Below, in pieces: positions 1,291 to 48,596 of a stretch of 64,000 nt of DNA. The translations under genes and the position numbers were made by a program. The notes under the pieces were generated by a model that was not told the DNA's origin, searched no databases, and was given only the letters and a program-made list of their open reading frames with translations. Source of the stretch: Raphanus sativus (taxonomy: Eukaryota > Streptophyta > Magnoliopsida > Brassicales > Brassicaceae); assembly GCF_000801105.2 (NCBI RefSeq), contig NC_079518.1, positions 26,392,800 through 26,456,799 on the forward strand, read 5' to 3'. Numbering within the stretch: position 1 is the stretch's first letter; every line of letters begins with the position of its first letter.

Positions 1291-4200
1291 TTTCATTAAA
1301 GGGATCGAAGAAACAAATGTTATTAAGTTCTGCTGATGGTCCGTGGACTCACAAAAAGGCCCAATTAGTGATCGAAGCCATAAAAGATGTATTTATCCTG
1401 GATTTGGACTAAGACCATTCCATAAAATCCGCATATACACACCGGCAAGTTGATACAGTCAGTTGACGTTGAGATTAACAATTGTGGATTTGTTCTTTCT
1501 TTGGTTATGATGTTGGTCTCATCAGTATTCTTTTTCTTTGTCAATAAAGTATACTGCGAAGATTTTGTTAACCAAATTAGTAACTCCGTGTGTATATGAG
1601 TGATATACAACGTTGTTTACGAGCTATTATTATTTGTGTTTGTATTGTTTTCGCGTAAAAAATGAAGAATTAATGACAGGTTTTATTTTAATATTTAGAA
1701 AGTTCTAACTGGTTCAGGACTGGACTGAGTCACTGACTGATACAATCCTGGTCTGATACACTTAAAATTGTGTTCTTGAGAGATATGTAGTAGAGTTGCT
1801 GACCATTTTTCTCTGAGATTATGATTCATTCGTTTTCTTTGGGGCTGTTTCCTGATTTTTATTTTAGTTACGCACGTGTTTGTATAATTGTAAAAACACA
1901 ATGTTGAACAAACGTAGTAGAAATTTAAGCCATTATGTACATTTAAGCTGAGACGAAGAACATGCGTAAATTGGTTGGTTTACTTCTAATTATTGATAAC
2001 GAGCTGAAAATACGACTTTTACATTTTTTATCCAGTTATCGTTTAGTTTAATCCTCTGTTCTATTGGTTCTCGAATAATTTCGATCTTTATTGGTTTTTG
2101 ATTCCGGTAAATGTGTGTTCTCGCCTGCTTACTGCTTAGGTGTCTAATATTTATATTTCACCTGATTTAAGATAATCTTCGTCTGATAAAAAGAAACCTC
2201 AATCACAACATGTGTCCACAACGTGATTTTGGAGGTGTGGTGGGACATAATCAAAGTGTCTTTTGTCAGTAACAGCTCATTGCTCTCTGTACCTTCTTTT
2301 AACGCATTGTGTTGCTAAAAAAAGTTATTTCTATTTTTGTGTCAAAATCAATTTGCTAAACTTTAGTTAATAAATATTATTTTCTTACCTAAACCGTCTT
2401 TCCCAGTCTTTTTTGGGTATTATCTTACTTCGATCAATAAAGCAAAAATCTTCAAAACTTTTGCTTAATTAATCCATTTTATATGTTTTCCTTTTTCTTA
2501 TAACAACCCATTTCTTATGTTGACAATTCCTTTTATATATTCCATGCATATCCATTTTCTGCAGATATTAGTCATTTTCTACCAAATAGCATTTTCCACA
2601 TGTCTTCTATTTTTAACAGAGCAATAGATTTTCTTAGATCTGGATTTTACTGTGTGCAGTCAGTGCTATTCAATGTGGTACCCTTTTTTTGTCAACCTGA
2701 TCAATGTGGTACCTAATATATCAATTATTATAGTATTAATAGTTAAATTAAAATGCTATTTACAAAACAATATACTGCATTATCATTTGCAAAAACAGAA
2801 AGTATTTTAAATACTAGTATAACATGATATATACTAATTTCAATATTATAACATAATATTTTGTTAGAAAGATATCTTAAGATTTTACAAAACCAAATAT
2901 TCTTAAAACATAGTCACTACTACACTCTCTTTTTCTTGATGGTAGTCTAAGAAGAACTAAAACTGTCTCACAGTGAAATATGTTTTACGTTCCAATGTAT
3001 AACTATTTTATTAAGAAAAAAATATTTTCATATTTTTGATGTTGGAAATTAAGAATATATCAGGTATTGCCATCTATTATTTTTAAAATGTTTAAAGTTG
3101 GAAAACATATAGAAAGTTTTTGTAAGTGAATAAGTACAAAATATACATTAGAATAACACAAAACATTATTACAAAAATGATAGTTACAATAGAAAATAAT
3201 CAAAATAGTCTTCCATAAAATATTTAAATACTTATAATTATAAAGCTAATTGATTAAAATTTAGGATTTAAATTTTGGGGATTAGAAGTTAAAGTTTAAA
3301 GATCGGAGATTAGAGTCTATGATTTAGTATTAGATTATAAAAACAATATTTTAAATAAATATTTATAATTTGTTTTTATAATATTTATTTATATTAAATG
3401 TATTATTTATTAAATGTATTATTTATTAAATGTAGTTCGAATTCTTTACGCTTAATAAATACTATAATGATCATTTTCTTGTTTTGTATGCTATTTTGTA
3501 ATATTTTTTCTTGGTTATCTCATGAAACTTGCCCATAAATATAAACTCTCTTTAAAAAAATTGGAAAATTATTTATATGAGATATTTTTACAGATTTTTA
3601 TTTTAGTCTGCTCTGATTTTGATGTTTCTTTTTGTTATAGCTAATGTACTAGTAGTTCAGTTCTGTGTTTGGTTATGATCTCTGTTTAGCTCGTACTTAG
3701 AGCATCATTATTGGTCATCCCTTAAAACATCTCTTAAGAAGAGATTATAAAATACTAAGACCGAAAAGAAAAGAAAAAGGAAAAAAACTCCTAATTAAGA
3801 GCTGATCTTTGTACCAATCTGACCAAAAAAAGAAAAAAAAACAGAAAATAAGAGACTTGATTGAGTCCCACCAATATTCGCTCTTACTTTTTTCGGGTTC
3901 TTGTCTTCTTTTTATCTCTGTAAAAAAAAGAAATTGGTAATGAATTTTTAACAATTTTTACTACAAAAAATTGGAAACTTCAGGTTTAATTCTTTGATCT
4001 CGAAACATCAACTGTAGCTAATCATCCTTAACTTCGGACAATAGTATAAATCCACATAAGTGTTAGGTATTAAACGAACACCAAACCTAATTAAATACTT
4101 TAATGTCTAATCACTTTACAAAAGTGTATAAAAGAAAGGAAAAATTCCATAAAAATACCCGAACTAAATTTTGTTAAGCTTTTTAATATCTAAACTTTTT

Positions 4201-32400: not shown

Positions 32401-33497
32401 CATCAGTAAGTATCACAATAGAACCGTCAGGTCTCACGATCCTTATCTTGCCAATCCCTTTGACGTCGCAGTGAGTGTTGTTTGCCATCAGAACTCTGCC
32501 TCCTTCGAATTCGTCTAGGTCAAACAGAACATCTTTGTTTGGAGTTATATGGAAAGAACAACCAGAGTCCATAACCCATTCCGAGCTGCTGTCGTGTTTA
32601 CTAACTGTTAGTACAAGTGGCTGCTTAGGCTCTGCAACTACATTAGCGGCTCTTTGTGTTTTTCTCTCTGGGCATTCCCTTTTCCAATGTCCTTCTTTGC
32701 CGCATACGAAACACCCCTTGTTGTTCTTGTCGTATCTAGGCCTTGATTTAGAACGTCCGTGCCTGCTCTTCGATCTTCCTTTCCCATTCCGGTTCCCTCC
32801 CTTGTTGGATGATCTTCCTCTGTCTTCCACGTACAAACCTTCATCTTGTGACTTTGAAAGCTTTCCACTTTCAAGTAACTCTCGCTCCTTAGACCTAGCG
32901 GCTCCCGTCACTTCATTAATCTTGAGAGTGTCCCTGCCGTATTTGAGAGTTCCCTTAAGATGATCATACATACGGGGCATTGAGTTTAGTAGCAGGATAG
33001 CTTGAACTTCTTCTGAAACATCCACATTCAAGTTATTGAGGTCTGCTACTAACTTTAGAAAATCATCAACGTTTGCGTCTATGCTCTTGGAATCGTTCAT
33101 CTTGAACGTGTAGAATTTATGTTGCAAGTAGATACGATTCGGTAAAGACGTCTCCGTGTACAGCGTGTTTAAAGCGGTCCACATCGCAGCAGCTGTATCA
33201 CAATGGCTGATCTTCCGTAGAACTTGGTTACCTACGTTCAGGACGATTAAGTCTTTTGCTTTCTCCGATTTCTTGAGCTTTTCCGGATCAATCTTTGAAC
33301 CCGTCGTTTCTTCTTCTGCGTTCTTCGTCTCCCCTTCTGATTCCTCCTTGGTACTTTGGAGGATCCATCAGAAGTGTCTCATCAGTTAGGATGTCTTTTA
33401 GCCCTATAACCCCAAAGTGAGCCATCATATGAACTTTCCACAGCAAGAAGTCTCATGTTCCTTCGAACCGGTCCACCTCGATCCTTGTCTTAGTCAT
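29449..33497 (-). pseudogene. Copia gag-pol polyprotein, broken
   Basis: In order on the minus strand: gag (ATG at 33497; UBN2-type region from MWTALNTLY), CCHC zinc knuckle CFVCGKEGHWKREC, aspartic protease WVMDSGCSFH, GAG-pre-integrase (HARLGHMSLKNL), integrase core (HSDLWG..., TDNGLEFCN, QQNGVSERMN), reverse transcriptase (WIFKLKPG, then LYVDDMLIAS) and RNase H (STTEAEYMAL, tail DFLTKALPG). Lesions: an in-frame TGA at 33453-33455, a frame change near 33355, another near 31285, a TAG at 31020-31022, and a frame change near 30630. No intact polyprotein can be made. The domain order (integrase before reverse transcriptase) fixes the family as Copia. Confidence 0.95.
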
Positions 33498-34546: not shown

Positions 34547-34990
34547 GTATTTTTGATCAAATATTTAAAACCCGGAGTCAGTTCTTGGAACATGAGGGAG
34601 AAGCAAAAGCATCAGGTCCATCTTTTTTGCAATATTTTTTTTTAATAACTAAGATCTTTTTTATTTAGAAAAAAGGATCTATACTATACATATGCATAAA
34701 TTGGTCAAACATGTATATTATGTCATGGCCATCAAATTTGTTAGGCCGGGCCTGTGTAAACCTGATTACATATTACGTAGACATTTATATGATATGCACA
34801 TGACAATGCTAAATCTCATAAAGAAATATATGTAACAACATGATTAGGATTCCAAAGAAAAAAGGAAAACAAAAATCTACCCTAGTATAGGAAGTTTGAT
34901 ATAAAATTCCAAATGCTTTTTATTTATAACTGAAAATACATGTTTCTATATTTCTTTTGGTAGTAACAGGCAGAAACCTAGCGAGAGAGG

Positions 34991-35359
34991 ATGGAAGATA
35001 TTGACAAAGCTATCCTTGAGTTCACCATCTTCTTCTTCTTCACGATCATATGTTGTTGTTGCTGTTGCCGTTGCCGTTGTAATGGTTCCGTTGAGTTACC
35101 TCCCGACCAAACTCCAGAGACTCAACAAGACATTGAAACCGGATTGATAAAGGGCTTACTGTTCAAAGATATCAAAGAAAAAGACGACGAACAAGAAGAA
35201 GCGTGCGGTAAACGTTGTTGTCCAATTTGTTTGGAAGAGTACGAGGATGATCATGAGATTAGTCGTTTGAAGAAGTGCAGACATATTTTTCATCGTTTTT
35301 GCATTGTTTCTTGGCTTAAACTGAAACCAATCTGTCCAAGTTGTCGTCGTTCTGTTTGA
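34991..35359 (+). CDS. Small RING-H2 finger protein with N-terminal membrane segment
   Basis: A single-exon frame of 122 aa. The N-terminus has a hydrophobic run (about 9-22) leading into a cysteine cluster (CCCCCC, then RCRC) that may be palmitoylated or simply anchor the segment. An acidic linker follows, then a C-terminal RING-H2 (about 76-118): CPIC, C.H..H with CRHIFH, then C and CPSC, matching C3H2C3 spacing. Likely a membrane-attached E3 ubiquitin ligase of the ATL/RMR-like small class; the GLD/PA features of those families are absent or short. All zinc ligands are present. The target is unknown. Confidence 0.8.
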   Translation: MEDIDKAILEFTIFFFFTIICCCCCCRCRCNGSVELPPDQTPETQQDIETGLIKGLLFKDIKEKDDEQEEACGKRCCPICLEEYEDDHEISRLKKCRHIFHRFCIVSWLKLKPICPSCRRSV

Positions 35360-35811: not shown

Positions 35812-38800
35812 CTAATGCTGTTTTTCAAGATATCGATTATCCTCTTTGCAAGCTTTAATAAAAGCAGTAGTAATCTGCCCAAAAAAAAAAAGAGTTTTGA
35901 TGAGATTACACGACACACAATAAGTAGAATAAGTTCATAGTTCACAATATAGTAAGATCCGAGTAAACCCTTTTGTCACAAATATAGTAACTCCATGGCT
36001 ATCTAAGGTGGATCAAATGCTGGGAAGGGACAAAAGGGTTCAAAAAAATCTATTATGGACCACATGTTTTTTTGTTTAAAAATTAAAAAAAAACAAAATC
36101 GAAAATAGGGCAAAAAGACTAAATAACCAAGAAACTTCAATTTATTTACAAACCCAACCACCAAGATCCATTAATCCGATCCGACCCAACTTTGAAACCC
36201 TAAATTCCCAAATCATCTTCTCCACTTCCACGATTTCAAACTCTCTCACTCACGATTTCAAACTCTCTCTCCCATAACCACCACTCTCATCTCTAACCCA
36301 CCACGATTTCAAACTCCCATCTGGATATCCCTCCCATCTCTAATCAAACTTAGATTCAAGCACAATCATCTCAAAACAACAATCTCCATCTCCAATTCTC
36401 GTGTCTACAATGTCGCCAAAAACTCGTCTCGCCGAGAAGAAAGAAAAAGCGGGAGCGTCGGAGAAGAAGAAGAACGCCGCCGTGAAAAGAAAAGAAGCGG
36501 CAGCGAAAAGAAGAGCCGCCGTTAAGAAAAAGAGAGAAGCGGCGAAGAGGAGTGAGACCACAAAGAAGAAGAGGAAGCGAGATAGTGGTCTGGACGGTGG
36601 GTCCTCGTCGAATCCAACCAAGAGGACTCGGAACCGTGTGAGAGAAACCGCAGGATCTCCACCGGAAAATGAAGGCGTTCATTCCCCCACACCGGACCCC
36701 ACCACACCACGCCCAGTGTCTCCGAGTCAGCCAGAAAAATCGCCAACACCAACTCATGCAGCGAATGAGGCCGAGAATCCACAACAACCTCGAGTAACCT
36801 CAGGCTCTTCCACAAAGAGTCCTTCACATCGTGTAGACGAGCAGAACGATGAGGAGATTGGATCTAACAACAGAGATCCAAACACACCCGAGGTTGCCGT
36901 TGATAATGAGACGCCAAGAACGGTAACAAATCAATTTAAAATGGTTTTAGAATTATTTGTGATAGGGTTGAACTAGTAGTAATTATATAAGTAGTGTAAC
37001 TAGTACAACTAAAATAAAACTAGTTCAACTGTTTATAATGTTGTAAACAGAATGAATGGAACTAGTATAACTAGTATAACCGAACTTCTTATAATTTTAT
37101 AACTGCTACAACTATCAAAAGTATAATTAGTTTAACTAATACACCTGAGTATTGAATAACTAGTACAACTAAAAGAATGAAACTAGTTCAACTGGTAATA
37201 ATATGTTGTAAAACAGAATCAATGGAACTAGTATAACTAGTATAACCGAACTTCCTATAAATTATATAACTGGTACAACTATCAAAAGTATAATTAGTTT
37301 AACTAATACACCTGAGTATTGAATAACTAGTACAACTAAAAGAATGAAACTAGTTCAACTGGTAATAATATGTTGTAAACATAATCAATGGAACTAGTAT
37401 AACTAGTATAACCGAACTTCTTATAAATTATATAACTCGTACAACTATCAAAAGTATAATTAGTTTTACTAATACACCTGAGTATTGAATAACTAGTACA
37501 ACTAAAAGAATGAAACTAGTTCAACTCGTATAATATGTTGTAAAACAGAATCAATGGAACTAGTATAACTACAACAACACCAACCACACTTCTTATAACT
37601 AATATAACTGGTACAACAATGAAAAGTATAATAAGTCTAACCAATACAACTGAGTATTTTGCTTTTGTTTTCCAGGTTGAGAGGGATATGACCGTAGAAG
37701 CTGACAGACCTGCTGGTTTTTTCTTCAATCCGAGCGACTATCAAAAGGGTTGCAAGCTCTCCTCAAGGTGCCGGCAACACGATTTCCTGACCATGCTGAA
37801 CGCGGTTGATAAGTTTGATGCCTCAGAGAAGAGTTGGTTTCAGGATCATCCTCAGTTCAAGCATATATTCCACATGGATTGTACCTCAACAAGAAAAATG
37901 ATGGGATTGTGGATGTTGCTACTTCGTACTATGCATACAGGAAAGGGTAGACAAGCTTGGTTTGGAGTAAACGGTGTTCCAGTTAGATACTCCATCAGGG
38001 AGCATAGCCTTATCTCTGGTTTATACTGCCACTCATATCCAGAAAACTATCAGAAGATAGGGAGCATGAAGTTTGCGAGAAAGTATTTTAAAGTGAAGAA
38101 GACAAAGGATGGGAAGGAAAAGGGTCTGCAAGTGACAGAAGAAGATGTCAAAGAGAAACTTCAGAAGATGAAGTTTGATGGTAGTGGCGATCGTCTGAGG
38201 ATGTTGGTTCTTTACTTTTTGGCTAGAGTTTTAAGAGGAAGGTCAAAAGCAAATTACTTCATTGAGTATTTCCTTCTTCAAGCAGTAGAAGATCTAGAGT
38301 TTTGCACCAAATTTCCATGGGGCCGTTACACATTTGAAGATTGCATGAAAGAGATTTTTCATGTGAGGGATCATTTTCGTGATGGGATCCCAGAGGAGGC
38401 ACAATGGCCATTTCCTGGGTTTATCAACCCTTTGGAGGTATATGAATTTCCTGGGTTTCATAAGCATATTTGTTATAATATAACTAATGTAATTGTGTGA
38501 AATGATGTGCAGATATTAGCATTTGAATGTATCCCTGTCCTTAGAGAAAAATTCAGAGAGCCTGTTCCAAACTGTCTTGATGGTTGTCCAAGAATGTGCA
38601 AATGGAGGTTCAAGAGGACCGGCACAACATGATTTCCACTTGACATGATTTATCGGACGCTAGGAGAGACAAAGGTAAAAGCTTATAATTTTTTTAAGTG
38701 TTGTTTATGTCATTTTCTTCAAGTTCATATTTAATTAAATGTGTAATTTGTTGTTGGTCATATTTCAGGAGATTATCAGTATTTTGGAACCAGTAGGATA

Positions 38801-41800
38801 TGAACTAGACCTTTTGTATCAAATCATGGATGAAGGGACTTTTGCAGACTTGGAGCTGAAAGATGATTGGGATACGCCAGACATAGCTGTTGACAGTTGG
38901 AACAGGATCCTACTTCAACCAGGGAGTAAAATATTCTGGCCGGATCTATATGAGATGGATGTGAGGACCCGAGAGCAACAAGAGGAAGCAGGAGGCGAGG
39001 CAGGGGGAGAGGCAGGTCGTGAGAGATTAAGAGAATTAGAGGCAGGGGGAAATGCAGGTGTTGAGGCAGGGGGCGAGCCAGGAGGCGAGGCAGGTCGTGA
39101 GAGATTAAGAGAATTAGAGTTGAAGTTGAACAAAAGCATGGATGATGGATTTGCATTGAGAGACGAAACAATTCGTCTTCTGACAGCAAGAGTAAAGGAG
39201 TTGGAAGAAGACAAGATTCAGAGAGAAAATTGGTCATTCCAAGTTGAAACTGATTATGTTTCAGGAGGCAGAAGAAGGGAGGGCGAGATGCATGGTGATA
39301 AGGTGGGTGATAAAGAAGCTGATAAGGAGGATGGTGAGGGTGATAAGGAGGAGGGTGATGAGGAGGATGGTGATGAGGGTGATAAGGATGATGATGAGGC
39401 TGATAAGGAGGAGGGTGATGAGGAGGATGGTGATAAGGGTGATAAGGATGATGATGAGGCTGATAAGGAGGATGGTGATGAGGCTGATAAGGACGGCGAG
39501 GATGGTGATGAGGTTGACAGTGATGATGATGAGGCTGATAAGGACGGCGAGGATGGTGATGAGGTTGACAGTGATGATGATGAGGCTGATAAGGACGACG
39601 AGGATGGTGAGAAGCAGATTGAGGCAGAGGCTGAGAATGATGGTGAGAAACAGATTGAGGCTGAGAAGGATGGTGAGACAGCTGCTGAGAAGTTAGTGCA
39701 AGGTAAGTCATATTAACATATAATTTCAAATTATATTTTTAATGATGATGATCTAAGTCAGGATGTATTTTTGTTCAATGTAGATACTGAAGAGAGATTT
39801 GATGAGGATGGAGATGAGCAATCTACACTTCAGATTATGGCAGACACTGCAGAGAGATTTGAGAAGGCTGCTGCGGAAAAAACTGCTGCGGACAAGACAG
39901 ATTCACAGGATGCTGGTGAGAGGCCAAAGAGGGTGTCCAAGGTTTCTCATTTGTTGAGGTCTCCTTTTACGCCAAACTAATTTGGTGAAATGTTGAACTA
40001 TGTTGTGTTTTTGGAACTTGTATGTGTTTGTTTTAAAACCTAAAACGGATGAACTTGTATGTGTGTGTGTTTTAAAAACCTAAATCCAATCTTGTATGTG
40101 TATAATTAATTTGGTGGTTGAACAGGTTGCATTTACAGGTGGGGAGCAAGTAAAACTGCATAGTTGATGCCAAAAAATATAAAATTAGAATAACTAGAAA
40201 AACTAGTACAGCTAGTGTTGAATTAAAACGTGTAGGACTTATCTGGGAATCCACTTATCTGAAACACATTATGCACACAAAGTTGTTTTAGTTTTTTAGT
40301 TATACTGGTTTCTATGCAGTTGTACTAGTTTATTAGTTATACCAACTTGCACAAAGTTGCACTAGTTTATTAGTTATACTAGTTTGTACAGAGTTGTACT
40401 TTGGCAGTGGAACCTGAATATATTAGTTGTACCAAAGAAAAAATACCATAATCTTAGTTGTACCACTCATTTATGTTAACATGTGTTTGCCCGGATGTTT
40501 TGCCATCATCGCTATTGTGAAAGTACTTGTCATGTATGTTTTGCCAAAAATATGTGGACAAACAAGTTAACAAACCTTAAATATATAAGGTAGATTAAGC
40601 AAACTTTTGTGATGGAGCTAAAAATCCAGAAAAAAAAAAACAATACAAAACATAAAGAAACCTATCCAATCACATAAAAATTAGACTATTTGATTGTTTT
40701 ATTAATATGGAAATCCCCAAAGAATATTTAAATTTCAGAACCTGCATAGTTGTACTAGTTATACTAGTCGAACCTATTATAGTAAAATAGACATAGTTGT
40801 ACTAGTTAGACGAGTACAACCTATTTTAGTTTTACTAGTTGTACCAGTACGACAACACATATATATGAGTGTTATGTTTTATGAAGTTTTACCATGTTGC
40901 ACATGTATTACCTGATTGAAACAACACAAGGCATAAATAAATTCTACAACACTTAAATAAAATCTACAATACATAAATAAGTTCTATAACAAGTTAACAA
41001 GTAAGATTCACTCATCATTTTCGTTGTCACCTCCCTCGTCCCCATTTGCCTCGCTGCCACTGCTGTCACTGCTGCCACTGCTGTCACTGCCACTGCCACT
41101 GTCATCACTGCCACTTTCTTCGTTTTCACCAATCAATGGTGGATACTTCTTCTTTCTCTTCCTATGGTATTCTCCTGCAGATGGGAATCTAGTAACTTGT
41201 AGTCTTCCTTTCTTTTTTTCCACATACGGAGGGAAGACAACCTTAGATCGGATTTCCTCAGGAATTTCAGAACTTTCCCATGTTGAATGATGAGGCACTG
41301 GATATATTGTCCTGCAATATGCCAAAGTCCACTGCTCCATCCAGTAATATCTAGAACAATAATGTTCAGCCATTTCTCCACGCTTCATGATGGCAGCAAG
41401 TGCATGCACACAAGGATACCGATCAATATCAAAATACCTACAATAGCATGTTCCGTTGCTCAAATCAACAAAATAACCATGACCATCTTTGCCAACCACA
41501 TTGTAGTGACCTTCAAATGTATTTAGCTCGGTCACCGTGAGCTTTTTTGCCTTAGGATAATTGTGATGCAATATCCCATGCACATACGGGACTAGTATCT
41601 GCCTCTCTGGTACGCGTAAAGATTCTATACGGTATTTGTTAAACCATTCTGTCATCTTTGCCACGATCACATCAAGCATTGGCAACAGTGCATATTTCCT
41701 TGGTTCCTTCAAAACACCATTCATAGATTCAACAGTGTTGGTTGTGTCTATGTTGTACCTTTCTCCCGGAAATTTACATCTTGCCCATTTAGTCTCATGA

Positions 41801-44624
41801 ACACTGTCATAAAGATATGCGGCCGCTTGAGGATACGTTCTCCTGAAATCATTGTAGCATTTTCGGAACTCCACCTCGTTGTATATACCAGCAATTTGGC
41901 GAAATTTACTGGCAACTCCTTTCTTGTTAACATTGCTGCATGCTCCGCTGACATTATTAGACAAGTGATAATTGCAATATCCATGGATTGCCAACGGGTA
42001 CACCTCGTGTACTTTCTTGATGATGCTCTGGTTTCTATCAGTACAAAACACAAGCCGTGGATCATCTGGTATCAAAGTTTTTAATATGGTTAAAAACCAC
42101 TCCCAGCTCGCATTTTTCTCACCATCTACTACTGCAAAAGCGAGGGGATAATGATGATGATCTGGATCCTGAGCAGTGGCAATGAGAAGCACTCCTTTGT
42201 ACACACCCTTCAGGTGAGTTCCATCCATTATTATCACTTGCCTCATCGCTTTGAACCCTTCGATGCAAGCTCCGAGCGCAAAGAATATATACTTAAACTG
42301 GTTCTTCTCATCCACTTCTAATCGTGTAATGGTATCAGGATTCATCCTTTGTAACATGTACAAGTAAGATGGCAGCCTAGCAAAACTCTCCTCCGGGTTA
42401 CCACGCAAATCACTCAAAGCTTTATTTTTCCCTCTCAAAGCCGTAGAATATGAAACAACAACACCCAGTCTATTCTTCACCAAATCTATGAGAGTCTTTG
42501 GATCCGGAGTCTTGTATTTTCCGGGATAATCATTGTGCACCACTGATGCGACCAAGCCTGGTGTACCTCTTTTCTTCTTCTTCATGATAGTTGCATCTCC
42601 ACGCGAGCACGTATGCATCTTTCTATAAGTTCTGATAGAGAAAAAAGCAGAGTTCTTCAGCTTTGCAGCTCGTAAATACCATCTGCATCCAGCCCCACGA
42701 CATTTCAATATGTAAACCCGAGGATTCGACTTCATTATATCAACCTCAAAACAATTAGAATGCACACCTTTGTCCACTAAATCCCTCACTTCTTCTCTAG
42801 TCGCAAATTCTTGATGCAAACTCATATCAATGCCATCATCCCACTCTGAATTGACAACAGGAGGTTCAACTGCTGTAACAGCCGGCAACTCCTCCCTATC
42901 ATCCATTTCATCACCCTCTTCATTGATTTTCTCATGCTCAAACTCATCCTCCTGAATATGAGGGATCCGAATATGAGGAACAATTTCCAACTCTCCAACT
43001 CCAGCCATGTCATCATTAGCTCCGGCATCACTCAGATTTTCCTCATTCATAGAAAACATCTCGTTACTCTGATTTCCTAAGACAATTTCCTTAAGCTCCA
43101 CATGCAAGACACTACGTCGGTTTTTCTTATCTACCTTCATTAAATATCCTAAAACATCTTCATCATCCAAGATATAGCAAGGCCTCTTATTATTCATTGC
43201 CAGCGGAAAGTAACTCAATTGAAGCTTCGTCCCAACTACATCGATCTTCATTTTCTTGGCTATTCTATCAACCAACTCAGAATAAGTAATCTCCTCATAT
43301 CTTCCTTTCATCACTAGTGTAGAAATATGTTGCTCTTCACCATGTTCAAAATATATCACCACAGACCCATTACTATCCATAGTTCCTGAAAATGAGTAAA
43401 ACCCAACAATACTATACAAGTTATATGAGTTATACGGTTACAAAAAATACCGGTTATGCTAATATTACCAGTTTGACTGGTTTACATATCACAGTAGTTA
43501 TAAGTTATACTAGTAAGACCAGTTATACTACGTTCATTTTGCACATGACTACTACAAGTTATACGAGCTGTACCAATACCACCTATTTAATGTTTTACAC
43601 AGAGTGGTACCAGATTTACTATTGATTCGTTTTTAATAATAATGTCAGTAATACTACATCAGTTGTACCAGTAAAACCGGTTGTTAACAGATTTTGTGTT
43701 ACAAGTTGTACTAGTTGTACGATAGACGAAAATGATATCTTCTACAATTTCATGTTTCATACTCTAACAAGATTATATCAAACCTTATAATCTGACTAAT
43801 ACGGTTAACATACATTTTATATGACTAAACCGAAACAAATAACAATAAAAGCATAAAAAAGAGACAAAAGAGAGAGAGAGGAAGAGAGTTTACACTTACC
43901 AATCGATTTGAGAACCAAGGACCACGCAAATGGGCTGTCTCACGGCGTTCTAACCTGTAGAAAGACCCTAAGATACAGAGGTAAAGCTTTGTGGGTGAAG
44001 AGTTGAAGAAGAAAGCTTTGGTTGGTGAAGTGAATGAATTTTCGTAGTTATGAGTATGGTTGAGGAAGAAATGAAGAAGAAGAGAAGTGATGAGATTCAT
44101 TAATGGCGAGAGAGAAGAGGAAGGTAATCAATGGCCAAGATTAAAACATACTCATACGATCCGACGGCTGAGAGGTAAGATTCATTAATGGCATTTTTGT
44201 TAATATTTCAGATCGGACGGTTCACGTTATAACGTGAGAATTCTTGATCTAATGGTTGATATTGAAGTTTCATTAAGGATAAAATCGTAATTTTGATACA
44301 TTTGTCCCACAATAGATTAGTTTTGGCGGTTGTGGATTTTTTTTTTGTCCTTTGTCCCATAACAGATCACGATCCATCTAAGGTAAATAATCTTTATTCA
44401 TCTTACTTCTTGTTCAATGCTACTTTAGACTGCCAAACACACACACACACACACAATTCAAATGGGAATGTGATGTATAAAGCAGCAACCTTTGGGGATG
44501 AAAAAGGGAGGGGAACTCGCACCTCGTTAGAAACAGCAGCTTTCCGAACAGAGTCCTTGAAATCCTCCTCTGCCCTGTGTCTCTGAATCTCGACATCAGT
44601 GCTTCCTTCCTCCCTATCAATCAA
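35812..44624 (-). CDS. Small unrecognised gene split by the MULE insertion (two exons seen)
   Basis: Exon A (about 44624-44523, minus) reads STDVEIQRHRAEEDFKDSV then RKAAVSNE and ends at a GTGCGAG donor. Exon B (35874-35812, minus) follows a long pyrimidine tract ending GGGCAG and reads ITTAFIKACKEDNRYLEKQH then TAG. Both borders are phase 0, so they join into one charged helical peptide of about 55 aa. Without the 8366-bp MULE the intron would be about 280 bp. No in-frame ATG lies at the expected place: the codon before EEGSTDV is AGG where ATG might have been, and the only upstream in-frame ATG (44783) lies in the promoter. So the start may be lost, or lie in an exon I missed. Function unknown. 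Confidence 0.4.
36225..36345 (+). promoter_or_regulatory. Leader region of the VANC-like gene with CACGATTTCAAACT repeats
   Basis: CCACGATTTCAAACTCTC or a close variant occurs three times (about 36228, 36252 and 36302), after an AAACCCTAAAT telo-box-like word near 36196. This is consistent with a promoter or leader just upstream of the ATG at 36410. Confidence 0.4.
36985..37620 (+). repeat. Tandem repeat of about 165 bp in VANC-like intron 1, motif array
   Basis: Four consecutive units (starts near 37030, 37195, 37363 and 37526, marked by ATGTTGTAAA.CA.AAT.AATGG). Each carries AACTAGTATAACTAGTATAA, AACTGGTACAACTATC, CTAGTACAACTAAAAG and AACTAGTTCAACTGG. The shared core is GTACAACT (complement AGTTGTAC) and variants. 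High unit similarity suggests recent expansion or homogenisation. Confidence 0.85.
39300..39610 (+). repeat. Coding minisatellite for an acidic tract
   Basis: Units built from GATGATGAGGCTGATAAGGA and GAGGATGGTGATGAGG repeat through this part of exon 4. A perfectly repeated block of about 57 bp (near 39490 and 39547) encodes DGEDGDEVDSDDDEADK. The tract is almost wholly D/E/K/G. Confidence 0.85.
39981..41007. repeat. MULE intergenic region with AGTTGTAC/AGTTATAC motif clusters
   Basis: Between the two convergent genes, motif clusters lie at about 40180-40470 and 40740-40855. Examples are CAGTTGTACTAG, TTAGTTATACTAG, AGAGTTGTACTT, TTAGTTGTACCA and ATAGTTGTACTAG. The rest is AT-rich 3'UTR-like sequence. 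Confidence 0.7.
41008..43380 (-). CDS. MULE transposase (VANA-like)
   Basis: One uninterrupted frame of 790 aa from the ATG at 43380. Just upstream is a TTTTCAG-type acceptor, so the ATG opens the first coding exon after a leader intron. An earlier in-frame ATG at 43419 lies in that intron. Domains: N-terminal MULE-specific region, acidic linker (about 130-180), MuDR-type zinc/DNA-binding domain (about 190-290, C.GAGCRWYLRA...H.C), DDE transposase with D386 in IIMDGTHLKG, D447 in VFCTDRNQSI and E551 in NTVESMNG, the CNYHL helper motif, and a SWIM zinc finger (CYCRYF...YPCVHALA, about 640-680). The C-terminus is serine/glycine/acidic. No stop or shift is visible, so it may encode an active enzyme that cuts and moves elements with these ends. 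Confidence 0.92.
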   Translation of the reverse strand: MDSNGSVVIYFEHGEEQHISTLVMKGRYEEITYSELVDRIAKKMKIDVVGTKLQLSYFPLAMNNKRPCYILDDEDVLGYLMKVDKKNRRSVLHVELKEIVLGNQSNEMFSMNEENLSDAGANDDMAGVGELEIVPHIRIPHIQEDEFEHEKINEEGDEMDDREELPAVTAVEPPVVNSEWDDGIDMSLHQEFATREEVRDLVDKGVHSNCFEVDIMKSNPRVYILKCRGAGCRWYLRAAKLKNSAFFSIRTYRKMHTCSRGDATIMKKKKRGTPGLVASVVHNDYPGKYKTPDPKTLIDLVKNRLGVVVSYSTALRGKNKALSDLRGNPEESFARLPSYLYMLQRMNPDTITRLEVDEKNQFKYIFFALGACIEGFKAMRQVIIMDGTHLKGVYKGVLLIATAQDPDHHHYPLAFAVVDGEKNASWEWFLTILKTLIPDDPRLVFCTDRNQSIIKKVHEVYPLAIHGYCNYHLSNNVSGACSNVNKKGVASKFRQIAGIYNEVEFRKCYNDFRRTYPQAAAYLYDSVHETKWARCKFPGERYNIDTTNTVESMNGVLKEPRKYALLPMLDVIVAKMTEWFNKYRIESLRVPERQILVPYVHGILHHNYPKAKKLTVTELNTFEGHYNVVGKDGHGYFVDLSNGTCYCRYFDIDRYPCVHALAAIMKRGEMAEHYCSRYYWMEQWTLAYCRTIYPVPHHSTWESSEIPEEIRSKVVFPPYVEKKKGRLQVTRFPSAGEYHRKRKKKYPPLIGENEESGSDDSGSGSDSSGSSDSSGSEANGDEGGDNENDE
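43390..43725. repeat. Motif array in the leader intron of the transposase gene
   Basis: About a dozen AGTTATAC/AGTTGTAC-like words lie in 330 bp, for example CAAGTTATATGAGTTATACG, GTTATACTAG, CCAGTTATACTAC, TCAGTTGTACCAG and CAAGTTGTACTAGTTGTACG. This falls in the probable 5'UTR intron of the transposase, whose donor would be the GGTAAGTG at about 43896-43903 (minus). Confidence 0.75.
43726..44375 (-). promoter_or_regulatory. Right end of the MULE: transposase leader and promoter
   Basis: From the right terminus inward it holds the degenerate terminal inverted repeat, AT-rich promoter sequence, and a leader exon ending at a CGATTGGTAAGTG donor (minus). No other coding frame is supported. Confidence 0.5.
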
Positions 44625-44998: not shown

Positions 44999-46937
44999 AT
45001 GGCGATCTTTGCGGCTTTTGTCATTGTCCCTTTTGGTTTGATCTTGTTGGTTTCAGGCCTCATCATCAACCTCATTCAGGTCATTCACTACTTCCATAAA
45101 AAATCTTTATTTTTGAGTTTGTTGTCTTCTCAATGGAAGAGACTGGTTAATACATTTGGTTCCTTTTGGAACACAGCTTCTGTTATGCATCTTTGTTAAT
45201 TCGTCCTGTCTCAATAAGTTGGTATAGAAGAATCAACACAAGTGTTGTGGAGTTACTTTGGTTGCAGCTCATATGGCTCTTTGATTGGTGGGCTTGTATC
45301 AAGGTTTGGTGACTCTTTTCAGTTTCTTGATCTCTTCTTCAGTAATAATGTAGCGATTGTAATCTTTTGATATTGCAGATCAATTTGTATGCTGATGCAG
45401 AGACTCTTGAACTACTTGGTAAGATGATTATGTAATTCGGCTTCTTATAAGTCCCACTGATATTTAAGTGTTCATGATATTATTACAACACCTTCAGGTA
45501 AAGAACATGCACTTGTCTTATGCAATCATAGAGGTGACATCGACTGGCTCATCGGATGGGTCACGGCTCAGGTCTTGAAACAAAACTTCTTCAGGACATT
45601 TCTTGGTTCCGTAAAACTCTTTCCTGTCTCTGAAATATTTGTATGACAGCGCTCAGGTTGTCTGGGAAGTACTCTAGCAATCATGAGGAAAGAAGCTAAG
45701 TACTTTCCAGTGAGTTTGTTTGAGCCATACTCAAAAAAAAGTTACCAGTTTATTCTTTGGTTAGAGCTCGTGGCGTTTAGGTTTACTGTCTTTAGTCATA
45801 TTTTTACTGAATCACTGCAACACTATCACACAGATAATAGGTTGGTCCATGTGGTTTTCAGAATACATCTTCTTGGAAAAAAATTGGGCCAAGGATGAAA
45901 ATATCCTCAAGGTTAAGATATTGTTTCGAGTTATTGATTATTAAAACTATTTTTTTTTTTTGGCAGGCAGGTTTTAATCAACTGAAGGACTTTCCTACAA
46001 CGTTCTGGCTGGCTCTTTTTGTCGAAGGAACTCGATTCACTCGAGAAAATCTTGAAGCTGCTAAAGATTACGCATCTCTAAAAGGCGTACCATCTCCTCG
46101 CAATGTTTTGATTCCTCGCACAAAGGTGACCTTTACTTTCTTTCAGGTTATTTTATGAGCTTTTGCTTCACTTGTATTTTACGTTCGCAACATCAGGGAT
46201 TTGTTTCAGCGGTAGCTCACATGCGCTCCTTTGTTCCTGCGATTTATGACTGCACATATACAGTTCATAAGAAACAGTCTCCACCAACATTTCTTAGTAT
46301 GTTCAGCGGCCAACCATCTGAGGTTACAAGAGATTTCATCACTGTGTCTGTTATATAGCTCTCGCTTCAGATTGATCTACTCTCACTTCTCTGTTTCTTC
46401 TTTGTTTTGAAGGTGAATTTGCAGATGAGACGTTACCAAATGAGTCAACTGCCAGAAACTGCAGATAACATTGCACAGTGGTTGCAAGATCGGTTTGTCG
46501 CCAAGGTTTGACAAACCAAAACAAATCCTCATCATCAAACTTTTTTTTTTCATTTGGTCTCTCATCTCTTTTGTAAAAGCAGGACGCTCAACTTGAAAAT
46601 TACTTCACAACAAATGATGTGTTCAGCGACTTGGACGTTCACCAAATTTGCCGGCCAATCAAACCATTGGTTGTAAGACACGTATAAACACTATCAGATT
46701 ATTGGAAACTATTGCTAGAACTAATCATCTCTCAATCTTTATGGAACCGTCTGGAAACAGTTGGTGTTAACTTGGTTCTGTCTCCTCATATGCGGCAGCT
46801 TCAAGCTACTTCAGTGGTTCTCCATGGCCAATATCATCTGTTTCTTTGTCTTTTTCTTGGTGGTTGAAGCTTTAACAGTGCGACTTCTGATCCAATCCAC
46901 CCAATCAAGGGGCACAGTGCCTAACAACCTCTACTAG
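44999..46937 (+). pseudogene. LPAT3: Lysophosphatidic acid acyltransferase (LPAT3-like), frameshift at exon 2
   Basis: 1-acyl-sn-glycerol-3-phosphate acyltransferase of the ER membrane, making phosphatidic acid. Exons: 44999-45079, 45177-45303, 45379-45418, 45498-45571, 45650-45709, 45834-45911, 45967-46125, 46197-46322, 46413-46505, 46583-46672, 46761-46937 (about 367 aa). Seen: N-terminal membrane helix, [10 protein letters not shown], the catalytic NHX4D block as NHRGDIDWL (relatives NHRSDIDWL), [11 protein letters not shown], the FVEGTRFT substrate block, IPRTKGFVSAV and C-terminal membrane helices. All junctions are in frame except 1-2: exon 2 is 127 bp, and its protein-like frame is off by one from exon 1 with the only good acceptor. 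Either there is a one-base loss, or an unusual splice rescues it. LPAT3 (At1g51260) is supported by gene order; LPAT2 is the close alternative. Confidence 0.72.
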
Positions 46938-48062: not shown

Positions 48063-48596
48063 TCAGATTTTGTCAAGCTTCTCTGCCTTCACAACCGGGT
48101 TTGCTTTAGCTATAGCTTCTTGCGCAGCGGCATGGTAATTGAAGGAGCAGTTATGTATGTCTGCATAGCGGTGCGTCCCGCAGAAGAGGTCACCACAGCG
48201 ACATTTGAATCCAGTCAGACCAACCCGTTTGTTGCAAGTAGTACATCGGCTTGGTCCTTGCTTCGGTTTCGCTGCAGCTGCTGCTTCTGGAGCTACTACC
48301 TCTGCGGGAACTTGAACAGAGGATGGCTGCACAGATACAACCACCGGCTCAACGGATTTGGTTTCAGGATCAACCAGCGCAGCGGCAAAGGTTTCCTTTA
48401 AGATGTTGCTGGATGATGATGAAGAACCAGACACTGCAGATGCAAACTTAGCCCCCTGTTCCTGTTGAAAGAGGATAGTCTTGTGACACTTGGAACACAT
48501 GTTCATTGTGGCAGCGCTTCCGAAGAAACCGCAGTTGTTGATGCAAAGCTTGGGACCTTCAGGTGGGCTTTGGCATCCTGTCTTGTCGTGGTCCAT
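48063..48596 (-). CDS. SAP2: A20/AN1 zinc-finger stress-associated protein
   Basis: An intronless 177-aa coding sequence. A20 finger (about 14-42): [23 protein letters not shown]1 finger (about 118-160): [18 protein letters not shown], then [18 protein letters not shown]. The tail is [21 protein letters not shown]. All zinc ligands are present and the length matches the family (Arabidopsis SAP2, At1g51200, about 173 aa from memory). A20/AN1 proteins bind ubiquitin, and some act as E3 ligases in abiotic stress responses. The alanine/valine/proline linker is slightly longer than in Arabidopsis. The first ATG lies three bases after a GAATTGCAG acceptor, showing a 5'UTR intron. Confidence 0.95.

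Follow-up and report, generated by a model that had tools for sequence, protein, structure and literature searches.

VANDALs are reported from Brassicaceae (PMC6446971), and the described systems closest to the present one come from Arabidopsis. There, VANC21 binds short words of the kind considered here, and VANC21 and VANC6 each lower DNA methylation in the families that they themselves target (PMC5735166, PMC10398659). VANDAL6 carries VANA and VANC and has noncoding words that lie partly in tandem repeats, and VANDAL21 (Hiun) has arrays in the VANC intron and upstream of VANA, with uniform orientation within each array (PMC5735166). According to its title, PDB entry 9LNJ shows VANC21 crystallised together with its target DNA.

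We analysed a 64,000-nucleotide stretch of Raphanus sativus DNA (the window) and found in it a new member of this known kind of system. Its main word, AGTTGTAC, has been published as the ‘AC-type’ target of VANC6 (PMC5735166), and the placement of its words and its pair of genes resemble those of VANDAL6. Compared by word and layout, it departs from VANDAL6 in that 12 of its 28 words are AGTTATAC, that AGTTGTCC is absent from the element and that its VANC is broken. With VANDAL21 it shares a VANC that combines DUF1985 with DUF287, as well as uniformly oriented arrays in a VANC intron and upstream of VANA. Unlike in VANDAL21, no third gene was recognised in the element, as judged without a VANB reference sequence, and the word differs: the VANC21 word YAGTATTAY occurs once in the element, the same as in shuffled sequence.

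Element structure and coding capacity

The element is a VANDAL-type MULE that combines a VANC gene with motif arrays of the VANC type (Table 1), the class that the initial annotation had given it. Its 9-bp target-site duplication is perfect at both edges, as first described, and its terminal inverted repeats were rightly called weak: they are short and degenerate, and 34 of 20,000 random 30-mer pairs reach the alignment score of its first and last 30 bp. Perfect 9-bp duplications flank five of the eight family copies examined (the window copy, L010, L011, L014 and L016); there is none at L009 or L013, and the left end of L012 is lost.

Table 1 Features of the element and its surroundings, in window positions
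Feature	Position	Strand	Details
Copia-type gag fragment	33002-33367	-	PF14223, E 7.5e-24
RING finger host gene	34982-35353	+	E 2e-11
Left 9-bp target-site duplication	36001..36009		ATCTAAGGT; same letters as the right one
VANDAL-type MULE	36010..44375		8366 bp; weak terminal inverted repeats (GGATC...GGGACAAA); twin L009 and siblings L010-L014 and L016
VANC exon 1	36410..36922	+	Lys-rich N-terminus; ATG and splice sites kept in siblings
VANC intron 1	36923..37675	+	166-bp tandem repeat x4.0 at 36997-37658; 10 AGTTRTAC words, all on the minus strand
VANC exon 2	37676..38437	+	DUF1985 (PF09331), E 3.7e-25
VANC exon 3	38513..38674	+	in-frame TGA
VANC exon 4	38769..39702	+	past the stop; DUF287 (PF03384), E 2.1e-7; acidic tandem peptide repeats (39039-39610)
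VANC exon 5	39784..39980	+	past the stop; C-terminus
Intergenic array	40298..40844	+	11 AGTTRTAC words, all on the plus strand
VANA, MULE transposase	41008..43386	-	792 aa, uninterrupted
VANA 5' array	43428..43720	+	7 AGTTRTAC words, all on the plus strand
Right 9-bp target-site duplication	44376..44384		ATCTAAGGT; same letters as the left one
Acyltransferase-like exon	45461-45640	+	E 0.0016, under the Pfam cut-off
AN1 zinc finger host gene	48066-48500	-	E 4.6e-9

The two genes are convergent, with VANC on the plus strand and VANA on the minus strand. The full-length MULE transposase reported at the outset was borne out: VANA is free of internal stops and contains Plant_all_beta (PF10532), DBD_Tnp_Mut (PF03108), MULE (PF10551, E 2e-16) and SWIM (PF04434, E 6e-9) domains. 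Among the family copies, VANA is open in L010 and L013 and damaged in L012, L014 and L016. VANC comprises five exons joined by GT-AG introns, and this single gene encodes both the DUF1985 domain noted earlier and, as an addition, a DUF287 domain that lies downstream of the stop. The acidic peptide repeats of exon 4 come from tandem DNA repeats, and the total length of the protein differs between siblings with an open VANC (883 aa in L010 and 838 aa in L013).

Identity of the DUF1985 gene

In a phmmer search of the PDB, the VANC core had a single match, Arabidopsis VANC21, over chain residues 25-379 (E 2.8e-90); exon 2 of the window copy is 45% identical to VANC21. We then placed the gene in a tree of 29 DUF1985 sequences, which separated 15 VANC-like sequences (the window copy, 13 others from the same genome and AtVANC21) from 14 other DUF1985 sequences, of which 10 are Ulp1-associated and 4 are not. 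The long branch between the two sides has a support of 1.000 in FastTree and 100 in IQ-TREE. Each of the 10 Ulp1-associated genes has a PF02902 match on its own strand at a distance of 1.6-3.4 kb. These pairs were picked by eye among the matches listed, which were the best 149 of 702 candidates for VANC-like genes, the best 150 of 737 for Ulp1 and the best 150 of 1073 for DUF1985. Judged by sequence, the DUF1985 gene of the element is a VANC. A predicted DUF1985 fold built with 10 sequences has VANC21 (9LNJ) as its top structure match, a match that rests on sequence as well; its mean pLDDT of 54.6 was too weak, and structural claims based on the fold were dropped.

VANC exon 2 has diverged faster than VANA between the window copy and L017 (dN 0.215 and 0.087, respectively), and Arabidopsis VANC is likewise said to change faster than VANA (PMC5735166).

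Motif arrays in noncoding DNA

The word AGTTRTAC, mostly followed by TAGTT, occurs 28 times in the 3419 bp of noncoding DNA of the element and 0 times in its 4947 bp of coding DNA. Dinucleotide shuffles of the noncoding stretches gave a mean of 0.85 and a maximum of 4 (300 shuffles), and the remaining 55.6 kb of the window holds 6 occurrences. The 28 words comprise 16 copies of AGTTGTAC and 12 of AGTTATAC. Within an array all words point the same way: the 10 in intron 1 are all on the minus strand, and all 11 intergenic words and all 7 before VANA are on the plus strand. Words had initially been described in every noncoding part. All 28 lie in three of these parts (intron 1, between the genes and 5' of VANA), and introns 2-4 and the left terminal 400 bp are free of them.

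AGTTATAC, which is absent from the main text of PMC5735166, is one base off the VANC6 word; read as GTTATACTA, it is also one base off the reverse complement of the VANC21 word (GTAATACTA).

Two rival readings concern the arrays and the gene. One is that the arrays are a by-product of tandem-repeat growth and shared ancestry, read by no protein. The 166-bp unit in intron 1 does multiply any word inside it, and related elements have a common ancestry; against this, the same word recurs in three separate arrays, two of them outside the 166-bp repeat, is absent from the coding DNA of the element, has been retained far more often than background 8-mers in loci sharing 55-73% noncoding identity and is itself a published VANC6 target (PMC5735166). 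We regard this explanation as very unlikely. Even less credible is that the DUF1985 gene is of the Kaonashi (KIU) type with a captured Ulp1 domain. KIUs are described as VANC genes bearing a transduplicated Ulp1 domain (PMC13317346), Kaonashi and KIU VANDALs resemble the present element in having a VANC-kind gene in a non-TIR MULE (PMC13317346), and DUF1985 does adjoin Ulp1 (PF02902) domains elsewhere in this genome. However, PF02902 had no match at E up to 1, either in exon 1 alone or in exons 2-5 read together, and the gene groups with VANC21, on a separate branch from the 10 sampled Ulp1-associated DUF1985 genes. The domain scan and the tree together led us to reject the Ulp1 reading in favour of a VANC gene accompanied by VANC-type motif arrays.

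A premature stop in VANC

The spliced VANC of the window copy stops after 464 aa at the in-frame TGA. Among the eight family copies, this stop is present in two (the window copy and L009) and absent from five (L010, L011, L012, L013 and L016); L014 lacks exon 3. Across the 18 loci with an exon 3 match, the codon at this site encodes Gly in 15, is a stop in the same 2 and encodes Trp in 1 (L018), and the residue in VANC21 is Gly. The 28-base sequence bearing the stop was found at exactly 2 places genome-wide, the window copy and L009, by exact search, so a copy further changed there would be missed.

The initial annotation had called the element intact-looking and its anti-silencing system self-contained, descriptions that the stop contradicts. 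Counted on the alignment, it falls at about VANC21 residue 305. Because this lies inside the part homologous to crystallised, DNA-bound VANC21, a working VANC is most likely no longer made from this copy. Many of the fetched loci have a broken VANC gene, so that a broken copy alone is not remarkable: VANC is damaged in L011 and L012 in their own ways and is also damaged otherwise in L014, L015, L018 and L027, with stops elsewhere in exon 3 in L015 and L027.

The truncated product retains its DUF1985 domain complete upstream of the stop and might still work without DUF287 and the acidic tail, in which case the element would be self-sufficient, as was first proposed. Two near-identical copies carry the stop, which means that the stop lineage moved or was copied recently. 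We nonetheless consider an active 464-aa protein unlikely, given that the stop interrupts the stretch matched to VANC21 residues 25-379, replaces a Gly found in 15 of 18 loci and is absent from the other five family copies that have exon 3. A VANC-defective element thus remains our preferred reading.

A twin at a second site

The twin, L009, lies on C6. It aligns with the element from end to end, the only differences in 8.4 kb being 1 substitution and 1 one-base indel. Its flanks are unlike those of the window copy, placing it at a different site. As L009 lacks a 9-bp duplication, we considered whether it was an assembly join, which we rejected: flank paralogs on C4 and C9 show the site uninterrupted, with 4 bp (AAAT) repeated at the edges of L009, and the existence of these paralogous empty sites marks L009 as a real insertion. 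Since the same stop occurs at two sites, at least one copying event in this lineage followed the appearance of the stop, likely through transposition; whole-element gene conversion could in principle have produced the twin instead. The stop-bearing twin at a second site further suggests that the lineage was probably mobile after losing its full-length VANC.

Words in sibling copies and sister families

Enrichment of AGTTRTAC extends to the 7 sibling copies examined and to five sister-family loci. With the gene placed beside VANC21 in the tree, neither of the two outcomes named at the outset as refuting a VANC-type element came about. In the eight family copies (with the left boundary of L012 uncertain), the flanks have 0 words; the shortened L016 has 16, and each of the other seven has 25-30. 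We also compared how well words are retained in eight loci (L010, L012, L013, L015 and L017-L020, with L023-L028 outside the comparison). The close copies L010, L012 and L013 kept 21-28 of 28 words compared with 58-90% of other 8-mers. In L015, L017, L018, L019 and L020, in which noncoding DNA is 55-73% identical, 10-15 of 28 words were kept compared with 1.5-8.8% of other 8-mers, figures to be read with the provisos that motif words were allowed R at one position and either strand, slightly easier than for control words, and that alignment may draw similar words together.

Word counts covered 12 loci by unbiased 8-mers and 14 loci in a second count, which agrees, drawn from at least 149 exon matches; neither count included L021 and L022, in which VANC exon 2 has no match. 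AGTTGTAC and AGTTATAC are at or near the top of the 8-mers in the window copy, L015, L017, L018, L019 and L020, and in these loci they keep the same orientation with respect to the genes, lying on the minus strand in VANC intron 1, on the plus strand ahead of VANA and mostly on the plus strand in the intergenic region. In L023 and L024, AGTTGTAC ranks first and AGTTGTAT lower. L027 carries AGTTATCC and AGTTCTAC in intron 1 and 6 copies of AGTTGTAC between the genes; its VANC, at 59% identity, is the closest to VANC21 of those tested, and the VANC21 word is absent. The intergenic region of L026 holds 6 copies of AATAATACCAGTA (YGGTATTAY), one base off the VANC21 word, and its VANC is not close to VANC21. 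L025 and L028 use other words, not near AGTTRTAC.

These loci support a pattern in which closely related VANCs share a word and distant ones mostly use others, with a fit that is not strict, as L027 illustrates. The co-evolution of protein and motif proposed earlier is supported in the sense of such a pattern: loci with related VANCs share the word, and the locus nearest to VANC21 lacks the VANC21 word.

Gene-less relatives

Genome-wide, pairs of words 5-35 bp apart number 1621, compared with 190 for a reversed control pattern. Two clusters without a VANC match, both taken among the matches listed, are L043 and L044. L043 is a 3332-bp element with a perfect 9-bp target-site duplication, similar ends and 18 words, and it has no VANC or VANA match. 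Apart from a nested repeat described below, its structure occurs at 7 places, L043 included, at 95-100% identity among the matches listed; the duplication was examined at L043. L044 likewise has no VANC or VANA match, and its ends were not found. In Arabidopsis, PAC is reported to be possibly a non-autonomous VANDAL with repeats that VANC6 might target (PMC12312487).

Nested in L043 is a high-copy repeat of ~650 bp (approximately 3186-3833) that lacks these words and occurs at 96-98% identity at at least 32 other places.

A model for VANC use in trans

By analogy with the Arabidopsis systems, we infer that the noncoding AGTTRTAC arrays are putative docking sites for a VANC protein, which, once bound, would strip silencing DNA methylation from the element; its genes could then be expressed and VANA could move it. 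For the window copy, whose truncated VANC has most likely lost its function, VANC (and VANA) made by open siblings such as L010 and L013, in which both genes are open, would de-silence and mobilise it in trans. Given that open-VANC siblings exist, supply in trans explains this most simply, and we consider it likely that the element is a VANDAL defective in VANC that draws on sibling-made VANC through its motif arrays.

A broader scheme is possible, if doubtful. One genome may hold a graded dependency, from full VANDALs with VANC and VANA, through VANC-dead copies that still spread, to gene-less copies consisting of ends and arrays. A few working VANCs that tolerate both AGTTGTAC and AGTTATAC would then supply all of these in trans. 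As AGTTATAC is one base off both the VANC6 word and, as GTTATACTA, the reverse complement of the VANC21 word, such a VANC would form a bridge between the VANC6 and VANC21 specificities.

For VANC action in trans, this family amounts to a natural test: the short-VANC lineage occupies two sites, its copies show 2 differences, and beside it stand open-VANC siblings and a gene-less relative that retains putative docking arrays. The same genome has at least 149 DUF1985 exon matches of the VANC type and several distinct words in the 12 loci analysed, making protein-word co-evolution testable against the VANC21-DNA crystal structure.

Mosaic copies and genomic surroundings

Four siblings (L012, L013, L014 and L016) have a different right end. 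Compared with window positions 43387-44375, they are ~19% different in the VANA 5' region (160-166 of ~850 bp); outside it they are mostly 1-3% different, with L012 more so in exon 3, exon 4 and the left end. These copies look like mosaic elements, as if the right end had been swapped between subfamilies. A further family copy (G000:C8:22209722-22210483) has a near-identical VANC exon 2 and a nearby 100% match to VANA query bases 1-361 only.

Within the window, the element lies between the RING finger and the acyltransferase-like exon, with the AN1 zinc finger host gene and the Copia-type gag fragment farther out on either side.
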